Under the pieces are notes generated by a model. The model saw nothing but the letters and a program-made list of their open reading frames with translations. It did not search any database and was not told where the DNA came from. From IMG/VR virus record IMGVR_UViG_3300046001_000459, positions 1 through 20,542 of that record: 20,542 bases of DNA; one strand, given 5' to 3'. The translations under genes and the position numbers were made by a program. Each line of letters opens with the position of its first letter. Within the stretch, counting starts at the first letter, position 1. Positions 2,745 through 9,953 of the stretch are shown here, one piece after another. The DNA comes from a virus.

Positions 2745-3056
2745 TTAAACGATCTCAGTCACAGAAAATATGGTTGCGACAGGCGCAATCACGGCGATCT
2801 TGTCACCACCACTGACCTCAATGTACTCAACCTTGTTGATGGGCAACTGAGTAGATGTGCTATTTGATGCAGTCGGATTTGAGCCAACCTGATAGTGCAA
2901 GTGAGATGTGCCAGCGTTGGCAATACGCACAATGGTGGTCTGCGCTCCGAAGGCGGCAGACTGCTGGCTTGTTATGGTGACAGTAATCACCTGACTCGCG
3001 CCATGCTTGCCAAATATGCAAACCTTGCCAGTGTCATCGCGGGTTAATTTAGACAT
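2745..3056 (-). CDS. Small beta-rich protein, paralogue of the upstream gene
   Basis: This 103-residue protein starts MSKLTRDDTGKVCIFGKHG and ends PVATIFSVTEIV. Alternating hydrophobic residues and the near absence of long helices predict a beta sandwich. It is a tandem paralogue of the gene just upstream: I count about 58 identical positions in about 103, including the MSKLTRDD start, FGK, QVITV, TIVR, GxNPTA, and ExxGGDKIA near the end. An AAGGGG Shine-Dalgarno sequence precedes the ATG by a few bases. Position in a structural module and fold type suggest a small head-decoration, head-tail or fibre-associated protein, but this is inference. The nine-base spacing to its paralogue suggests duplication within the operon. 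Confidence 0.7.
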   Translation of the reverse strand: MSKLTRDDTGKVCIFGKHGASQVITVTITSQQSAAFGAQTTIVRIANAGTSHLHYQVGSNPTASNSTSTQLPINKVEYIEVSGGDKIAVIAPVATIFSVTEIV

Positions 3057-3065
3057 CTCAGCCCC

Positions 3066-3380
3066 TTATGAAATCTGCGTCACAGACACATCGGTGGCAA
3101 CAGCACCACGAATAAATGCAATCTTGTCGCCGCCAGTGACTTCAACATACTCAATGGCGTTAACAGGCAGCATCGCGCTGGTGGTCAAAGTCGCTGTCGG
3201 GTTTGCGCCAACAGTGAAAAAGGCTGGCGCGGCATTGGTATTTGCCAAACGCACAATGGTGCAGTTGGCCGCCACAGCAGTAGACTGACCAGTGGTAGCG
3301 CCAACAGTAATCACCTGAGTTGTACCCATCTTGCCAAATGTCGCTATCTGACCGTTGTCATCTCTCGTCAACTTGCTCAT
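3066..3380 (-). CDS. Small beta-rich protein, first copy of tandem pair
   Basis: This 104-residue protein starts at the ATG at 3380 (MSKLTRDDNGQIATFGKMG). An open frame extends 19 codons further upstream, but the inner ATG is preferred because it aligns with the paralogue's first residue and has AAGGGG six bases upstream, the same leader as the sister gene. Features are a predicted beta-strand-rich body with QVITVG, TIVRLAN, FFTVGANPTA and EYVEVTGGDKIAFI, ending SVTQIS. There is no signal peptide. It is the first gene after the noncoding region downstream of terL and may head its own transcript. A small virion decoration protein is the most plausible role, by location and fold only. Confidence 0.7.
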   Translation of the reverse strand: MSKLTRDDNGQIATFGKMGTTQVITVGATTGQSTAVAANCTIVRLANTNAAPAFFTVGANPTATLTTSAMLPVNAIEYVEVTGGDKIAFIRGAVATDVSVTQIS

Positions 3381-3563
3381 ACAAATCCCCTTTAAAGAAT
3401 TAAGCGTTGGTGCAGGGAGTTCTGAGGAAAATCCCACTTAGAAATTTATAACCCAGTTACTCCGCACCAACACGGCTGGAGACTGCGGCCCTAGGTTAAT
3501 GGCGTTCTAGACCGCCCCCTCAGCAGATTAAGCAATCCCCATGCGTGTTGACGCATAACGCAA
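3381..3563. other. Noncoding spacer between terL and the paralogous pair, rich in inverted repeats
   Basis: This 183-bp stretch has no convincing gene. It contains a long imperfect hairpin (3406-3471), a smaller GGCG/CGCC element and two overlapping hairpins just after the terL stop (3541-3569). Read leftwards, a TATAAA box lies near 3447-3452, but no good -35 sits 16-18 bases away, so a host-type promoter is not established. The two palindromes CCTAGG and TCTAGA lie about 15 bases apart. The stretch could be a transcript boundary, an RNA processing signal or a packaging-related site. Confidence 0.6.
3406..3471. repeat. Long inverted repeat (13-bp stem, 2-base bulge)
   Basis: GTTGGTGC at 3406-3413 pairs with GCACCAAC at 3464-3471, and GGAGT at 3416-3420 pairs with ACTCC at 3459-3463. 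The only interruption is the AG bulge at 3414-3415. The enclosed 38 bases are AT-rich. No T-run follows on either strand, so this is not a standard rho-independent terminator. It lies 25-90 bases upstream of the first paralogous gene on the leftward transcript. Confidence 0.75.
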
Positions 3564-3569
3564 TTATGC
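3541..3569. repeat. Two overlapping, mutually exclusive hairpins at the terL 3' end
   Basis: ATGCGT (3541-3546) pairs with ACGCAT (3551-3556) around the tetraloop GTTG. GCATAA (3553-3558) pairs with TTATGC (3564-3569) around CGCAA. The two share GCAT, so only one can form at a time. The second includes the terL stop codon. No T-run is present. Confidence 0.6.
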
Positions 3570-5039
3570 AACCCTTGAGAGGTTTCTTTTCAACGGTTGC
3601 GCCCAGTTGTTGCCAGCCTTCGATCCCATCATGCCAATCACCGCATCTGATGCAAAGGTCAAACAGAAAGCATCAGCCTTGTCAGGTGAGGCCAAACCCC
3701 GCTTTTTGATCTCATCTTTGCTCTCAATCTGAATCTTTCCGTTGCTCGTAAACATATAACGCACGGTGGCCAACTCAGCAATCAGCAGCTCATCCTTTGG
3801 CAACCGACAGTCACGCTGCTCCAACCACGCCTTGGCCTTGTACCAAAGTTCAGCCTTCAGATTGCGGTAAGTACCGCCCATGGCCGGTGACTCCGCGACA
3901 TTAATGCCTCTGGCCGGCAGCTTCAACTCCCGCAGACGGTCAACCACGCCAGCGCCAAGACCAATGCTGTCCACCAGTATCTCGGTTGGACGGTCGCTTG
4001 GCGCCAAAGCCTCGTACTCGGCCACCACCGCACCGGTCAACTGCATCAGGTCTAAGTTCTTCCATGTCTTGATCGGCTCTGTCACCGCGTTCCCACGGCG
4101 TTTGCACAGCGCCGAACGGTCAGAGCCAAAGCGTGCCACATCCAAGCCCCAGACCAGTGGCGCGTAAGGCGAGGCCACCACATCCCGATTCATCGCCAAG
4201 TCCAACAACTCCATCGGTATCACCGTGTCTTCGTCAGACTTTGGAAACTCACCCAGCACGCGGATTCGGTAGGCGTTGGACTCCTCACCGTACCGCGACT
4301 TCATCTCCTCGATGTACGCCTCGCTCACCCTCGGCGAGTCGGCGCAGGACACCTTCATCGTCACCCAATCTCCCGCCAATCGGTTATGCGTGTCGTAGAA
4401 GAATCCGCTGGAACGCACAGGGTTTCCCAGTAGTAGCGTGACGGCGTTGTGGCCGGACATTGATCCAGATGCCGCCTCGAACACCTTCTCAGGTATACCG
4501 GATGCCTCATCTCCCACCAGCATCACATGATCGCTGTGGACACCCTGCAAGGCTTCGGGCTGCTCGGCACGCGATGTACGCGCTGAGATAAACGCCTCCT
4601 CGTTTGCGCCAATCACCTCAATACGGTCCTGTTTCACATCCAACATATCGGCCAGCATTGGCGGCAGCACCTTTACCCAACGCTTAACCTCGGCAAACAA
4701 GGCATCGTAGAGCTGGCTGCTGGTGGGCGCTGTCACCACCACCTTGACCGGAAAGCGCAGCAGCAGATACCAGATCATCGCCCAGGCACTAGCCGTGGAC
4801 TTGCCGACACCGTGGCCCGATCTCACGCTGATGCGTCTGCTGCCTGACGCGATGTGATTCAAGAATTCCACTTGCCAAGGGTCAGGCTCGGTGTTAAGGA
4901 CTTCCTTAACAAACAGGACAGGGTTATTCTTGTACAGCTTGACGAATTCGACAAAAGGGTTATTCGTCAGCAAGTCCTCGGAATTTTTTTTCGGGACGCG
5001 CTTTTTCGCGGTGGGGGTGGTGGGGGTCGGGTCAGTCAT
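3564..5039 (-). CDS. terL: Terminase large subunit (ATPase and nuclease)
   Basis: This 491-residue packaging motor cuts concatemeric DNA and pumps it through the portal. The N-terminal ATPase shows a Q-motif-like PWQVEF (55-60), Walker A SGHGVGKST (74-82), Walker B HVMLVGDEA with Asp177 and catalytic Glu178, and coupling motif LLLGNP (202-207). The C-terminal RNase H-like nuclease shows GLDVARFG with Asp300, ILVDSIGLGAG with Asp357, and SPDKADAF with Asp456, the expected acidic triad. Length is typical. An in-frame TGA lies eight codons before the ATG at 5039, so the start is firm within a few codons, although no strong Shine-Dalgarno is seen. An A8 run falls within codons 17-19. TerL is separated from TerS by a 280-bp noncoding gap that holds a DnaA-box cluster, an unusual arrangement. 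Confidence 0.95.
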   Translation of the reverse strand: MTDPTPTTPTAKKRVPKKNSEDLLTNNPFVEFVKLYKNNPVLFVKEVLNTEPDPWQVEFLNHIASGSRRISVRSGHGVGKSTASAWAMIWYLLLRFPVKVVVTAPTSSQLYDALFAEVKRWVKVLPPMLADMLDVKQDRIEVIGANEEAFISARTSRAEQPEALQGVHSDHVMLVGDEASGIPEKVFEAASGSMSGHNAVTLLLGNPVRSSGFFYDTHNRLAGDWVTMKVSCADSPRVSEAYIEEMKSRYGEESNAYRIRVLGEFPKSDEDTVIPMELLDLAMNRDVVASPYAPLVWGLDVARFGSDRSALCKRRGNAVTEPIKTWKNLDLMQLTGAVVAEYEALAPSDRPTEILVDSIGLGAGVVDRLRELKLPARGINVAESPAMGGTYRNLKAELWYKAKAWLEQRDCRLPKDELLIAELATVRYMFTSNGKIQIESKDEIKKRGLASPDKADAFCLTFASDAVIGMMGSKAGNNWAQPLKRNLSRVA

Positions 5040-5319
5040 TTCGGTAGGTGTTCGGTTGCGTCATCAACCGCCCCCGCCGCAAATCGCAAGGGGGGGGCAT
5101 CGCGCCGCGCCAGCCAGCAGGCCGGTCACCGCGGCCACTTGACAGTTGATTCTGCCTGTGGATATCTTTTCAGCGTAAGTCATTGATTCATATGCTTTCT
5201 TACAGATTGCTTACAATATCCATTTAACACGATGTCCATTATGTTAAGTCAAATGTGGATAACTGGCCTGTTTCTGCTCGTTTTGCAGGCGCTTTGCAGT
5301 TATGCACAGGCCAATGTGC
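5040..5319. other. Candidate replication origin: GC/AT boundary plus DnaA boxes
   Basis: The gap between terS and terL has no gene. The segment 5061-5140 is about 74% GC by my count and includes an eight-base G run (5090-5097). The next 100 bases (5161-5260) are about 32% GC. DnaA-type boxes (TTATNCACA on either strand) occur at 5157-5165 (TGTGGATAT, one mismatch), 5254-5262 (TGTGGATAA, exact), 5300-5308 (TTATGCACA, exact) and 5338-5346 (TGTGGATAA, exact, inside the terS 3' end). The AT-rich part also has an inverted repeat TTAACA/TGTTAA (5224-5229, 5242-5247) and direct repeats CTTACA 11 bases apart (5199, 5210). DnaA boxes beside an AT-rich unwinding region are the textbook pattern of a DnaA-dependent origin. 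Function is inferred. Confidence 0.6.
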
Positions 5320-5751
5320 TCAACCATTGCGATTTTCTGTGGATAAGTCATCAACAACCTCGACATGGCGCAGTGCCGCCATGCGTAGGTCTTGGATGTT
5401 GATGTTTACCGAGGCGGCTTTTTGTAAGCCATAAGTCTTCTGATCCCACCTTTCGGCCAGCCATTGCCTAGTTCGGATGCGCTGGACATCGCGCTGCGGG
5501 TTGCTGTCGGCCATGCTGTCAGCAATGTCCAGAGTCTCCACCGCGAGTTTATCGGCGGCTTTCGCGCGCGCACGCGCAATTATAGAGGGATCGGTATCTT
5601 CGATCCATTGCTCTAGCGCCCTGCGCCCGATGCCAAGCTCATAGCAAATCTGCGTCTGCGACTTGCCAGCCTCGAACATGGACACAATCATGTCATCGGG
5701 CAAATCCTCAAGCAATGCCATGTCTTCCCTGAATTTCGGCCTTCCTGCCAC
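5320..5751 (-). CDS. terS: Terminase small subunit
   Basis: This 143-residue protein would recognise the packaging start site and load TerL. It opens AGRPKFREDMALLEDLPDD and continues with a helix-turn-helix (SQTQICYELGIGRRALEQWI, about residues 30-49). An Ala- and Arg-rich oligomerisation helix follows (ARAKAADKLAVETLDIADS), then RIRTRQWLAERWDQKTYG and a beta-type tail (VNINIQDLRMAALRHVEVV). This order of HTH, oligomerising helices and C-terminal TerL-binding tail is that of Sf6-like small terminases. The start is GTG at 5751, supported by the conserved AGRPKF beginning; the next ATG (residue 11) would remove it. It follows a 29-codon frame by two bases. An exact DnaA box lies inside its last codons. 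Confidence 0.85.
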   Translation of the reverse strand: MAGRPKFREDMALLEDLPDDMIVSMFEAGKSQTQICYELGIGRRALEQWIEDTDPSIIARARAKAADKLAVETLDIADSMADSNPQRDVQRIRTRQWLAERWDQKTYGLQKAASVNINIQDLRMAALRHVEVVDDLSTENRNG

Positions 5752-5753
5752 GC

Positions 5754-5843
5754 TCAGACCCGCTTTAAAGCTGTTTTAACGCGCTGGACGATGTCCAGTA
5801 CCAGTGACTTGATCAAGTCCGCTAATCGTTTAATTTGTTCCAT
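5754..5843 (-). CDS. Possible 29-aa helical peptide upstream of terS
   Basis: ATG at 5843 to TGA at 5754-5756 encodes MEQIKRLADLIKSLVLDIVQ followed by a basic end (RVKTALKRV). The heptad-like pattern of Ile/Leu/Val alternating with Lys/Arg suggests one amphipathic helix. GGAG lies nine to ten bases upstream, within the end of the preceding gene, which it overlaps by 14 bases. The terS GTG starts two bases after its stop, so it may couple terS translation to the upstream gene even if the peptide itself does nothing. Size makes the call uncertain. Confidence 0.4.
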   Translation of the reverse strand: MEQIKRLADLIKSLVLDIVQRVKTALKRV

Positions 5844-6507
5844 GTTTGTATTTCTCCGCTTGTTTGCTGTTGAATTTCATTTCTGGCTGACCGCCTTCAA
5901 ATGCATGAAGATCGTTTTCTAAATCATCAAAGCCTGATTGTCCACCGAATTTCTCGTTTGCTTTGAAGCTGACCACCTTTGCTGTTGGATCAAACGTTTT
6001 GACAGCAATGACCTGCTGCACAAAGGGATCGTTGAAGATCACCTCCAACTCTTCCATGCTCCAAATACACTTGTTGTCCAGTTCCTGTCTCTCGCGCTGC
6101 ATAGCCAGAGTCTCGTTGACCGTTCTGACAATCACCATAACCTGACCTGACTGCATCTCCCACTCAATCCTCGGAATGCTGTCGCTGGCTGGACTCATGC
6201 CTTGATCGGCTGCCCACTGATCGAGCACTGCATACGCTCGGACCATTCCCGCCAAACTGGAATCAAACTTCGCACGATCCTTTGCGCCAATCGCTTGGTG
6301 CAATCTGCTGTTCTGAATCCAGAATTTCTCTCTGAGTTCACTGTCTACTAAAGTAATCAGTCGATTTTCTCCCCATTTCCTGTCGCTGACCGCTTTGGCG
6401 GCCTCCAACTCCACCAACTTGGATTGAACATAAACCGTCCACGCATCTGCCTGTGGACTTGGACTCACCGCCACTGGATGCTGTCTTGAGCTTTTCTTTG
6501 TTGCCAT
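5830..6507 (-). CDS. Hypothetical protein preceding terS
   Basis: I do not recognise this 225-residue protein beyond a general likeness to hypothetical proteins beside terminase genes. The N-terminus is basic and Pro/Ser-rich (MATKKSSRQHPVAVSPSPQ). A helical central part follows (SKLVELEAAKAVSDRKWGEN, HQAIGAKDRAKFDSSLAGM), then a beta-like section (QVMVIVRTVNETLAMQRERQ). The helix WSMEELEVIFND comes next, and the end is hydrophilic. There is no membrane segment, signal peptide or catalytic motif. AAGGA lies nine bases before the ATG at 6507. It sits between the primase-helicase and terS in a leftward operon, so it could act in replication or in the switch to packaging, but no function can be assigned. 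Confidence 0.75.
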   Translation of the reverse strand: MATKKSSRQHPVAVSPSPQADAWTVYVQSKLVELEAAKAVSDRKWGENRLITLVDSELREKFWIQNSRLHQAIGAKDRAKFDSSLAGMVRAYAVLDQWAADQGMSPASDSIPRIEWEMQSGQVMVIVRTVNETLAMQRERQELDNKCIWSMEELEVIFNDPFVQQVIAVKTFDPTAKVVSFKANEKFGGQSGFDDLENDLHAFEGGQPEMKFNSKQAEKYKHGTN

Positions 6508-6552: not shown

Positions 6553-8754
6553 TCAGAAACTACGAGTCTTATAGACTCTCGTTTCCGATTCTGATTTCTG
6601 ATCATCTGAAGCGTCTGATTTCTGATCGCTTCTGATCGCTTCTGATTGCTGATTGTTGAATTTGTAAGCCGCCTCACTTGCCATTTTTGTCAAAACATCT
6701 TGGTTAAGCCATGCGACTTTGCCGTGATGTCCACCCAATTTTTTAGTTTTAAGTCTCCCCTTTGCTGTCCAAATTGCGTTACTGATTTGCGTCTTTGTAG
6801 CGTCATAGGCACTGGCTTGTAGCGTCAATTCTTCTTTCCAGTCATCAATATTGACCACCTTCAGGCTTACGCCATCTATTACATCAGTGAATCCTTTGTT
6901 CTTAATTGCCCTATATAGTGCTGGCAACTCATATGGCTGCCATTTGCCACCATCTTTGTTGGCTGGTGGCTTTTTCTCAGTCATCTTTGTGTGATCTGTT
7001 TTGGCTGAATCTGACGCTTGCACCGCCAAGCTGGTCATTGGGTCACCGATTTGCAGTGATCCGGCTGGCGCTGCCAGTTCGACTTTGACCATCTCAAAGC
7101 CGTAGCGCGTCCCATCTTCACCGTCCTTTTGCTTGGCGGTTCTGATGATGCCCTTCATAGAATCCTCAAACCTGATCAACTCCAGTTCGGTATCCACAGC
7201 CCCTAAGAGCGCAGACGATCCCCGCATTCCCTTGGCTGAGTCCTTGCCGCTGTGATGCAGAATCATCAGCGCAGCGCCTTGCACGATCTGCTGTATGCGT
7301 CCACAGGTCACCACAAACTGCATCATGTCTGAGGCCGAGTTCTCATCTCCACCGCCAAACGCTCGCGCCAGCGTATCCACAACGATCAACTTAAAGTCCA
7401 TGCCAGTTTCCATAACCAGCGTCTCTACGGCCACCATCAGCGCGTTGAAGTCCTCCACACTTGATCTGAGGTTTAGCTGGTGTCTGATCACATAGATTGG
7501 CGCACCGTCCTCTGTCTGATGGTGCTGCTTGCACGCCTTGATCCGCGCACCGACTCCCCCGAACCCTTCACCGGCTATATATAAAACAGCGCCGGATTCT
7601 GTGACTTCGTTGCCCATCCAAGTGCGGCCGGTGGCGATTGACTCGGCAATGTCCAGCGCGATAAAGGACTTGAATGAGCCTGGCGGTCCATATAAGGCGG
7701 TAAACGCGCCCACCGGAATCACACTGTGGATCAGCCACTTGACCGGCTCATCTTGTATCGAGTCCCAGTGCTCGATGGCGATTTGCTTTGTCGGCTTTGG
7801 TGGTGCTGCTGGCTCTGCCGCAAACTCATGTTCAATTTCTGCTGTTTTCTGTACATGATCCAGTTGATCTGTACACATTTCCTCGTTTTGTGTACATGAC
7901 TTGGTAATTGGATTCAACCGTTCGGGCATCGTTAGCTGATCCAACGATGTGATGACGGTTGCCGCCTTGACCAGCGCCACCAGTTTATCCCTGCCGCCGC
8001 CCTCCTCGATGAATTCGTAGGCATCGTCCCCTTGGCCTTGCAGACCGAGGTCAACTACCTTGAGTGACTTGACGATGGGCAATATTGCCTCTGCCGCTTT
8101 GTAGGCATAGCCCCAGCCGGCCACATCGTTGTCGGGCAGGATGATCACTTGAGCGCCAGCAAAGTATTCTGTGATGGCGGCAGGCCAGCTTCCAGCGCCA
8201 GTGTGCGCGGTGCTGGCGATCATGCCAATTGACTTGATCGCGTCTGCCGCCTTCTCGCCTTCAACTAGGAAGATGTTTCTGCCTGCGGTCTTCGCGTCCA
8301 GCAGCGCGGGTAAGTTGTAGGGAACGATGCGTGCGTCTGACAGCGTGCTCTGCTTTCGGCCTGCCTCGTCAATCTTGTACAGACGGTATGTCTTGCCTGA
8401 CTCCCCTACGCGCAGCCGCTGCTTAACGAATACCGGCTGACGGTCTTCATCGGTGTAAATCCACTCCTGCTGGAATTCCACCTTTGGGATTGGTCTGATG
8501 TTGGCGAGTGGGTCTGGTCTTTCCAAGAGTTCCGGTAGCAAGTTCAATGCTCTGATGGTGTGAAAGACATCCTCTTGGCTGCACCCACCATGACAGTGGA
8601 AGAGAGGCTTGCCCTCATCATTGATGTCGATGCTGAGTGATGGATTCTTGTCGCCGTTGCCTTTGCCGTGACTCGGTACAGGGCAACTCGCCACCCACTG
8701 ACCGTTTGCTTTCTTTGCGTTGCCCAGCGTCTTGGCTATTTGTTCTGCTTGCAT
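6553..8754 (-). CDS. Primase-helicase: CHC2 zinc finger, TOPRIM and RecA-fold ATPase
   Basis: This 733-residue replication protein fuses primase and helicase functions. Cys24, His29, Cys54 and Cys58 form a CHC2-type zinc site. The TOPRIM core shows LVEGEKAAD with Glu165 and ILPDNDVAG with Asp208/Asp210. After a flexible linker (about 280-330) comes a RepA/AAA_25-type ATPase with Walker A GPPGSFKS (356-363), Walker B LIVVD (456-460) and LHHSGKD (499-505). A C-terminal part (605-690) resembles a winged helix. The tail is low-complexity Ser/Asp/Gln/Lys, encoded by TCTGAT repeats. The start is ATG at 8754: AGAGG precedes it, it overlaps the methyltransferase stop by 19 bases, and the upstream extension of the frame only mirrors the methyltransferase gene. 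It would prime and unwind DNA at the phage origin. Confidence 0.9.
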   Translation of the reverse strand: MQAEQIAKTLGNAKKANGQWVASCPVPSHGKGNGDKNPSLSIDINDEGKPLFHCHGGCSQEDVFHTIRALNLLPELLERPDPLANIRPIPKVEFQQEWIYTDEDRQPVFVKQRLRVGESGKTYRLYKIDEAGRKQSTLSDARIVPYNLPALLDAKTAGRNIFLVEGEKAADAIKSIGMIASTAHTGAGSWPAAITEYFAGAQVIILPDNDVAGWGYAYKAAEAILPIVKSLKVVDLGLQGQGDDAYEFIEEGGGRDKLVALVKAATVITSLDQLTMPERLNPITKSCTQNEEMCTDQLDHVQKTAEIEHEFAAEPAAPPKPTKQIAIEHWDSIQDEPVKWLIHSVIPVGAFTALYGPPGSFKSFIALDIAESIATGRTWMGNEVTESGAVLYIAGEGFGGVGARIKACKQHHQTEDGAPIYVIRHQLNLRSSVEDFNALMVAVETLVMETGMDFKLIVVDTLARAFGGGDENSASDMMQFVVTCGRIQQIVQGAALMILHHSGKDSAKGMRGSSALLGAVDTELELIRFEDSMKGIIRTAKQKDGEDGTRYGFEMVKVELAAPAGSLQIGDPMTSLAVQASDSAKTDHTKMTEKKPPANKDGGKWQPYELPALYRAIKNKGFTDVIDGVSLKVVNIDDWKEELTLQASAYDATKTQISNAIWTAKGRLKTKKLGGHHGKVAWLNQDVLTKMASEAAYKFNNQQSEAIRSDQKSDASDDQKSESETRVYKTRSF
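6590..6646 (-). repeat. Iteron-like TCTGAT direct repeats in the primase-helicase 3' end
   Basis: Six copies of TCTGAT start at 6590, 6597, 6614, 6621, 6631 and 6641, several inside a TTCTGATCGC unit repeated at exactly 10-bp spacing. Two inverted TCAGAA copies lie at 6544-6549 and 6553-6558, just past the stop. In the coding frame they give the Ser-Asp-Gln-Lys tail. The 7- and 10-base spacing is suggestive of protein-binding iterons, but simple slippage expansion is also possible. Confidence 0.7.
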
Positions 8755-9953
8755 ATTGCCTCTACTTGTTCGATGCGTTGTCCGATCCACGCCATCACAG
8801 GCACTGCCATGCTGTTGCCCAAGGCCTTGTACCTTGGACCGTCTGGCGTTGGCTTGCCCTTGGCTTGGATGTCGGTGTAGTTGTCGGGAAAGCCTTGGAG
8901 TCTCTCGCATTCCTTTGGCGTGAGTCGGCGCACTGCCATGGCTTGTTGAATTACTACTGCTTCATTTCCTTGTGTAGGACAATGGCATTGTTGTGTAAGA
9001 GCGCCAACGCCATGATCTTCGCGAACCTTACGGCCAGGAGACATTAAGTTCATTGACCATGCCGTTTGGGCGCTGGATGGAATAGGTTGCATCACGATAG
9101 GTTCATGCCCATGCGTTTCACGCCTAAGAGTTCCTGTCATGTCGTGCTCAATGTTCATCACGCTACCGCCTTGATCCATCAGGCAGATGGGTTGCGCCAC
9201 GCCATGCTGATCAGCCTTAGTGAGACATGGTGCAATGTCATGCATCGGCTCTGTGGCGTTGCCGCCGTTCTCAGGCTTGCGTCCAATCCAGTTGCCAGGT
9301 ATGCCGTAGGCTGGAATCAAGTCTTCTGTTTCAAAGTCGTAACGCTGGCCAGCGCCTCGTGTAAGGCACTTGGCAGGGTCTTCCCTCTTTTCTCTGCTCG
9401 GCGCAGGATTCCCTGACAGGCTGTGGCGCTCAAAAAGAACCGCTGCGGCACATCGCCAGTCTCCAAGGTATCCGACAACGAACACACGGCGGCGGCGCTG
9501 TGCCACTCCAAAGTATTGAGCGTCAAGCACCCTGTATGCGAACCCATACCCGCATTCTGCCAACCCTCCAAGGAAGCTGCCAAAGTCCCGTCCTCCATTG
9601 GAGGACAGAACGCCGGGGACGTTCTCCCAGACCAACCAGTTGGGGCTATGTTGTTTAGCAATGGCAAGATAGGTAAGCATGAGGTTGCCACGCGGGTCAT
9701 CCAATCCTTTTCTGAGTCCTGCGACTGAGAATGATTGGCAGGGAGTTCCTCCAACGAGAAGATCGACATTTGATTCAATTGACCACTCCTTAAATTTCGT
9801 CATGTCGCCAAGGTTTGGCGTTTGTGGGTAGTGGTGCGCCAGCACCTGAGATGGAAACTTTTCGATCTCTGAATACGCTACTGCCTCCCATCCAAGGGGA
9901 TGCCATGCTACTGTTGCCGCCTCAATACCACTGCAAAGTGAGAGATATTTCAT
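8736..9953 (-). CDS. DNA (cytosine-5)-methyltransferase
   Basis: This 405-residue enzyme transfers a methyl group from SAM to C5 of cytosine. All key motifs are present in order: LCSGIEAAT (I, 6-14), GGTPCQSFS (IV, catalytic Cys72), WENVPG (VI, Glu110), AQRRRRVF (VIII, 151-158), RRLTPKECERLQGFPDNYT (IX, 342-360) and YKALGNSMAVPV (X, 375-386). The region between VIII and IX (about 185-335), where the target recognition domain lies, is built from several short related units (CLTR..., CLTK..., GTLRRE..., GALTQQ...), which may give more than one specificity. No restriction enzyme is nearby, so it is an orphan phage enzyme that probably protects the DNA from host restriction. It follows a terminator, and no clear Shine-Dalgarno or promoter is visible before the ATG at 9953, so expression probably depends on read-through. 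Confidence 0.95.
   Translation of the reverse strand: MKYLSLCSGIEAATVAWHPLGWEAVAYSEIEKFPSQVLAHHYPQTPNLGDMTKFKEWSIESNVDLLVGGTPCQSFSVAGLRKGLDDPRGNLMLTYLAIAKQHSPNWLVWENVPGVLSSNGGRDFGSFLGGLAECGYGFAYRVLDAQYFGVAQRRRRVFVVGYLGDWRCAAAVLFERHSLSGNPAPSREKREDPAKCLTRGAGQRYDFETEDLIPAYGIPGNWIGRKPENGGNATEPMHDIAPCLTKADQHGVAQPICLMDQGGSVMNIEHDMTGTLRRETHGHEPIVMQPIPSSAQTAWSMNLMSPGRKVREDHGVGALTQQCHCPTQGNEAVVIQQAMAVRRLTPKECERLQGFPDNYTDIQAKGKPTPDGPRYKALGNSMAVPVMAWIGQRIEQVEAICKQNK

Follow-up and report, generated by a model that had tools for sequence, protein, structure and literature searches.

We analysed a virus record of 20,542 bp (hereafter, the window) and found, where its two terminase genes adjoin, a compact module at about positions 5070–5346. 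The clustered and conserved DnaA boxes of this module, its IHF-type site, its low duplex stability and the primase-helicase gene that points at it make a replication origin using host initiation proteins the best explanation, and, reading from the DNA sequence, we hold this view with somewhat more confidence than doubt.

Layout of the module in the window

The genes around the module are encoded on the minus strand, in the order primase-helicase, a 225-aa protein, terS, the terS–terL gap and terL. The gap proper spans 5040–5319. The features of the region are as follows.

3564–5039, minus strand: terL, large terminase (tblastn against annotated TerL, best 68%; phrog_2, E 1e-48)
5070–5097: C-run/G-run tract
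5157–5165, minus strand: degenerate fourth DnaA box, ATATCCACA, near-exact
5161–5260: AT-rich stretch, candidate DNA unwinding element, 32% GC
5176–5188, minus strand: IHF-type site AATCAATGACTTA, the sole consensus match in the window
5222–5249: 28-bp imperfect dif-like palindrome, its core present in 54 of 54 distinct gaps
5254–5262, minus strand: DnaA box 3, TTATCCACA, exact
5300–5308, plus strand: DnaA box 2, TTATGCACA, exact
5338–5346, minus strand: DnaA box 1, TTATCCACA, exact, within the 3′ end of terS
5320–5751, minus strand: terS, Sf6-type small terminase (Pfam PF20901, E 4e-11; phrog_1482)
5830–6507, minus strand: 225-aa protein between the primase-helicase and terS, with no Pfam or PHROG match
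6553–8910, minus strand: primase-helicase, AAA_25 helicase part (PF13481, E 5e-37; several primase/helicase PHROGs)

Transcription of the primase-helicase gene runs toward the module. Its true start is probably at about 8754, and the alignment begins at residue 53 in many relatives. A relative shows a weak Toprim match. By eye, a counterpart of the 225-aa ORF occupies the equivalent place in class B loci.

How exceptional is the box cluster? The exact TTATNCACA box occurs three times in the whole window, where 0.58 copies are expected, and all three fall within 93 bp (5254–5346). Not one of 300 dinucleotide-preserving shuffles placed even two exact boxes within 93 bp. Boxes with one mismatch are not enriched across the window (12 found, 15.2 expected), and the signal is therefore a cluster of exact sites.

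A sequence-only reading of this DNA had reported three exact boxes and one near-exact box between terL and terS, next to a switch in GC content. The four boxes are borne out, and the GC content is indeed 74% at 5061–5140 against 32% at 5161–5260. Three of the boxes lie between the two genes, whereas box 1 lies inside terS, where it reads Leu-Ser-Thr in frame. That reading had also named shuffled sequence and an alignment of the gap in relatives as checks; the shuffles exclude chance and, as described below, the alignment excludes non-conservation. The box-cluster observation of that reading is thus confirmed, and is stronger than originally stated. It had overlooked the C/G tract, the IHF-type site and the palindrome that resembles dif.

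Conservation of the boxes and of the neighbouring elements

A TerL search of viral contigs gave at least 597 related stretches, of which we kept the best 80. The TerL proteins of L001–L003 are 100% identical to that of the window, and other near-identical contigs are present; 54 of 66 gaps among these best 80 loci are distinct. In the 80 contigs, 201 exact boxes lie in the 600 bp upstream of terL (39,486 bp in all), as compared to 2 in the remaining 717,951 bp. Wherever a contig reaches 400 bp or more upstream of terL (65 loci), box 1 is present. Its codons are TTA-TCC-ACA in 47 of 47 distinct terS ends, in which other Leu codons nearby vary; since these 47 rows were chosen by the box, the conservation of box 1 rests on the 65 loci.

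The box spacing is retained across the alignment of the 54 distinct gaps. In the relatives shown, the box 2 position is occupied by TTATCCACA, TTATGCACA or TTGTCCACA, and many relatives have an exact TGTGGATAA near the position of the fourth box. In L066-type relatives, only box 1 is an exact TTATNCACA; the others are TTGTCCACA or degenerate, box 3 being among the degenerate ones. One group, comprising some class A loci, carries an 11-bp insertion, or one helical turn, between boxes 1 and 2.

The core of the IHF-type site, ATCAANNNNTTR, lies 3′ of the palindrome in 54 of 54 distinct gaps, with 0.015 matches expected by chance per 130 bp. The full consensus, which we take to be WATCAANNNNTTR, is found in 39 of the 54. 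Where found in the palindrome loci described below, the full consensus is offset from the palindrome by either +59 or about +70, and these two positions are 11 bp, one helical turn, apart. In addition, the duplex stability of the 60 bp starting at 5186 is within the lowest 0.06% of values in the window, and the homologous stretch in six relatives falls in the lowest 0.18–0.73%.

Of the 88 fully flanked loci among the matches listed for the palindrome scan described below, 83 have a run of at least six C or G residues close to the palindrome, as compared to 47 of 1440 background windows. We considered the C/G tract as a special hairpin and rejected this, the single-strand folding being no better than that of shuffles (z 0.01). 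A search for structured RNA gave no Rfam match at the gathering threshold.

A dif-like palindrome within the module

The 28-bp palindrome is strongly conserved, with 16 of its 28 columns invariant in the 54 distinct gaps of the best-80 TerL loci. Like dif, it shows an 11-6-11 dyad, and its central bases differ among the phages. The window palindrome is identical to E. coli dif at 19 of 28 positions (dif sequence from PMC3025954), and the 54 gap palindromes score 18–20 against the best of three dif seeds. A score of 19 was reached by 12 of 100,000 shuffled palindromes, by 131 of 100,000 when the dyad symmetry was kept (p about 1e-3), and by none of 40,168 GC-matched 28-mers. Among 1.3 million 28-mers elsewhere in the same loci, the fraction reaching at least 19 against any of the three seeds was 1.5e-6.

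Read on the plus strand, one arm of the palindrome matches the E. coli XerD arm at 10 of 11 positions by eye. The other arm has diverged: the XerC arm GCATAA is absent from the window palindrome, which has ACATAA in the terL sense and CACGA on the other strand. Moreover, dif was chosen for comparison after the palindrome had been seen, and the dif-likeness, with the Xer-type role that it would imply, is therefore suggestive. A looser dif-type pattern matched in 13 of 16 genomes of the Paraburkholderia order of locus L107, for example CATAATGTATATTATGTCAA, and the arm ATTATGT is common to the phage palindrome and the candidate dif-type sites of those genomes.

The terS–terL gap of phage C72C1 (TerL 47%) contains a palindrome-like core with a CGCATAA XerC-type arm, as well as a C/G tract. 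This gap contains no DnaA boxes, which counts against the origin reading. Since C72C1 has the palindrome and the tract without the boxes, these two may be the older, terminus-linked parts of the module, and the boxes may be a lineage-specific addition.

The module in phages with diverged terminases

Is the module confined to one type of terminase? We scanned for the exact palindrome, with neither terL nor the boxes in the query, and obtained at least 106 loci with 89 distinct modules. Among the matches listed, 103 of the 106 carry DnaA-type boxes within −160 to +120 of the palindrome. Of the other three, L193 and L201 have a palindrome but lack boxes, and L223 is truncated at a contig edge. 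Strict boxes number 343 in the 31,143 bp around the palindrome, as compared to 20 in the 871,456 bp away from it (among the matches listed). Box number and position vary among the layouts of these loci.

By tblastn against the window, the 106 listed loci comprise 53 with TerL at 50% or more, 11 more with TerS at 50% or more, 14 with TerL below 50%, 16 with a primase-helicase match and no TerL or TerS match, and 12 with none of these. In profile searches, the TerL proteins of the window, L236 and L200 share phrog_2, and the TerS proteins of the window, L236 and L283 share phrog_1482; thus, the terminases have diverged but are related. In L200 and in class B, the searches recognised no TerS. By tblastn, the primase-helicases of L283 and the window do not match, yet the two have PHROGs in common. 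Because phages with such diverged replication and packaging genes keep the module, its common reader would most simply be a host protein.

In a second scan, which used box pairs (L297–L399), TTAACATAA was found near 34 of 103 loci among the matches listed, where 0.65 were expected. A window-type TerS or TerL accompanies 20 of these 34 and is absent from the other 14. The box-pair set overlaps the phage family and is not an independent sample. The remaining 69 of the 103 listed loci lack a neighbouring TTAACATAA, so the boxes and the palindrome also occur apart; a window-type terminase is absent from 64 of the 69. Thus, the boxes and the palindrome co-occur well above chance, and box pairs are also present in other phages that have no palindrome.

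In L278 and L281, terS and the primase-helicase gene stand on opposite sides of the palindrome and both point at it. The primase-helicase match is the one that changes sides, lying 541 bp and 407 bp from the palindrome, respectively. These two contigs represent either a rearranged phage or an assembly chimera.

The module as a proposed replication origin

The primase-helicase gene precedes the module and points at it in 67 of 67 palindrome loci with a match longer than 250 aa, among the matches listed, and the near end of the match is a median of 1445 bp (range 407–1914) from the module. We also scanned relative G017 with Pfam, covering 30 proteins of its 54 ORFs of at least 75 aa; these include the ORFs of at least 250 aa, with terL and the methylase represented by the window copies. 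Among the 30 proteins, several large ones of which had no match, Pfam recognised none as a DNA polymerase, an integrase or a partition protein, and no Rep family appeared in the Pfam scans. One 201-aa G017 protein gave a weak, sub-cutoff match to a resolvase helix-turn-helix (PF02796, 22.1 bits against a cutoff of 23.8). A host-initiated origin fits this gene content, since no polymerase is recognised and the primase-helicase operon ends at boxes beside a melting stretch.

How would such an origin work? We infer protein binding, melting and firing, as well as any Xer action and any placement at a genome terminus, in the following manner. First, host DnaA would bind the clustered boxes, and in this phage group IHF would bend the interval that separates the palindrome from the fourth box. 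Melting of the AT-rich stretch at about 5161–5260 by the DnaA complex would follow. Next, the phage primase-helicase, whose operon stops just short of the module, would be loaded at the melted stretch, and finally the host polymerase would take over replication. As for the palindrome, it most likely binds another protein, possibly host XerC/XerD, to resolve multimers or circularise the genome.

Several findings count against the origin reading. One is the match of the window primase-helicase to phrog_906, a PHROG named DNA polymerase/primase, although the match covers the helicase part. Among the matches listed, 24 of 94 fully flanked palindromes have no IHF core nearby, mainly in two layout classes; the other 70 have one, with 0.05 expected. 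The L066-type relatives retain a single exact box, and box pairs occur apart from the palindrome in the 69 loci described above. In addition, DnaA boxes with IHF also mark titrating and regulatory loci.

Cumulative GC skew neither supports nor excludes an origin at the module. In six relatives it rises nearly monotonically, with no turning point at the module, and the detrended extremes lie at about 7 or 22 kb and at 31–35 kb from it. The raw minimum and maximum adjoin the module because the circles start there and the skew rises throughout; being a product of circle rotation, they were rejected as origin evidence. Circularity rests on exact end repeats in G020 and G017; for the other four we deduced it from a 40-mer at one end that is repeated close to the opposite end. 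The DnaA-dependent origin proposed in the sequence-only reading thus stands as the best explanation, through the boxes, the IHF-type site, the low stability and the primase-helicase; the skew that was to reveal it gives no support, and the module is a candidate origin.

Alternative functions

The boxes and the IHF-type site also resemble datA, a chromosomal locus of E. coli that combines DnaA boxes with a site for IHF. Carried on the many copies of a phage genome, such a locus could titrate or inactivate DnaA-ATP and thereby block new rounds of host replication. Box 1 and the IHF core are both present in 54 of 54 distinct gaps, as a DnaA sink would have them. The core is missing, however, in the 24 of 94 wider loci listed, and a sink leaves unexplained the 67-of-67 linkage to the primase-helicase among the matches listed, the low-stability stretch and the palindrome; neither a palindrome nor an adjacent phage primase-helicase gene accompanies datA. 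On sequence grounds, we consider this function unlikely.

Could the module instead be a packaging site or genome terminus, with IHF and the repeated sites assembling a cosB-like complex for TerS and the sequence of the boxes of no consequence in itself? In phage phiM5 (TerL 55%), a 357-bp direct terminal repeat is annotated, and at its right end, just before terL, lies a C/G tract; by analogy our module could lie in or beside a terminal repeat. The frequency of the C/G tract (83 of 88 listed loci) and the kinship of the terminases through phrog_1482 and phrog_2 point the same way. Nevertheless, the boxes stay DnaA boxes in loci whose terminases are at about 30% identity or have no tblastn match, class B has no recognised TerS, and the contig ends, inspected by hand, show no pile-up at one base. 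We therefore regard a packaging function as improbable. The persistence of the boxes while the terminases diverge also led us to reject them as TerS sites in the main reading; this rejection is weaker because the TerL proteins of the window, L200 and L236 share phrog_2 and the TerS proteins of the window, L236 and L283 share phrog_1482. A nearby terminus is compatible with an origin. The link between replication start and packaging that had been suggested earlier is one of position only: the module is also found beside strongly diverged terminases and, in some loci, more than 1 kb from terL.

Counted by hand, 11 of the 80 best TerL contigs (L023, L036, L038, L048, L053, L055, L068, L069, L072, L073 and L075) start within an interval that extends from 50 bp before the beginning of terL to 151 bp after it. 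The cause is perhaps a break in assembly at the C/G tract, or else a genome end. The terS contigs, also inspected by hand, have no common end position.

A promoter region regulated by DnaA and IHF, which would turn on the packaging and structural genes from terL onward, is a very unlikely alternative. In its favour, early genes give way to packaging genes at the module, which in class A is upstream of terL. However, the single sigma-70-like match in 4900–5500, on the plus strand, faces away from terL and is no more than shuffles would give (1 found, 0.6 expected), and in some loci more than 1 kb separates the module from terL.

Finally, Xer-dependent integration as the main function, with the module as the attP of an IMEX-like temperate phage and the boxes secondary, is highly improbable: the palindrome resembles dif, and a host recombinase would be needed because no integrase was recognised among the scanned proteins, but our genome-contig scan with two short patterns gave 12 TerL relatives, none above 69%, the palindrome pattern occurs in 0 of 399 sampled genomes of L107's Paraburkholderia order, and no plasmid in PLSDB matched the module, absences that carry little weight.

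Relation to known systems

Phage origins are usually regarded as sites for phage-made initiators. DnaA-dependent origins of the oriC and oriV types are represented by E. coli oriC and P1 oriR. The candidate origin described here resembles them in its TTATNCACA boxes clustered on both strands, its IHF-type site, its unstable AT-rich stretch and the nearby primase-helicase gene. It differs from them in belonging to a tailed phage, in lying at the early/late junction, and in carrying a conserved palindrome and a C/G tract. Coliphage 186 is also a tailed phage that uses a host initiator, being reported to depend on host dnaA; it is temperate. P1 circularises or resolves its genome by Cre/lox.

In Pseudomonas phage vB_PseuGesM_254, an AT-rich region with DnaA boxes is an origin predicted by Ori-Finder (PMC11512268). 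It is a single prediction, for a phage that encodes DNA polymerase A, whereas the layout described here recurs in many contigs and includes an IHF-type site and a palindrome. The Xer-using phages CTXphi and VGJphi are filamentous (PMC5357621, PMC3025954), and non-tailed vibriophages also figure in the literature on Xer use. Their sites and dif have in common with the module the 11-6-11 dyad with a variable centre; the module differs in its diverged XerC arm, and no integrated copy of it was found.

Isolate phages (INPHARED) gave short, weak matches to the module, and searches of the open-licence PMC literature turned up no description of the module, nor of a tailed phage using dif. The DnaA-type origin is a known kind, and the variant with a palindrome, an IHF-type site (in some groups) and a C/G tract did not come up in those searches.

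If the origin reading is true, these phages tie their replication to the control of host initiation, despite strongly diverged terminases and primases, and the module offers a short DNA signature for locating origins in uncultured phages. The dif-like palindrome, in turn, makes genome circularisation or resolution testable with E. coli XerCD. We also considered a wider combination for virulent tailed phages: a single region of about 280 bp would contain the origin, fired by host DnaA (together with IHF in some groups), as well as an Xer-type site and the genome terminus. We think this combination rather unlikely. If it holds, the packaged terminal redundancy would carry both a site for circularisation or resolution by XerCD and an origin for restarting replication, and the module would have been retained while the neighbouring terminases and primases diverged almost beyond recognition.

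Further observations

Relative G017 encodes SU10-type capsid and portal proteins (Pfam). SU10 has podovirus morphology, and these proteins therefore suggest a podovirus; some GenBank relatives bear the label Myoviridae. A prophage state found no support in the genome-contig scan (12 TerL relatives) or in the 399 genomes of the one order, and the phages may be virulent. No tRNA genes were found in the six relatives or the window.

A C-5 cytosine methylase gene (8736–9953, minus strand; PF00145) overlaps the called start of the primase-helicase ORF. A methylase-like ORF is present in the ORF list of G017, and none was seen in that of G020. Downstream of terL, the adjacent ORFs 2745–3056 and 3066–3437 (minus strand) encode similar proteins, both with MSKLTRDD by eye, and apparently represent a tandem duplication.

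Contig L113, from Selenomonas ruminantium, has three DnaA-type boxes in about 90 bp, approximately 3.6–3.7 kb upstream of its terL match. This cluster is possibly another such phage origin, in what may be a Firmicutes prophage. The class B box array at L219:9850–10190 has short, weak matches in Microbacterium phage Squash, Lactococcus phages AM4 and WRP3, and some Microviridae. The matches to this array fall mostly in unannotated phage stretches, and DnaA-box arrays may be commoner in phages than annotated.
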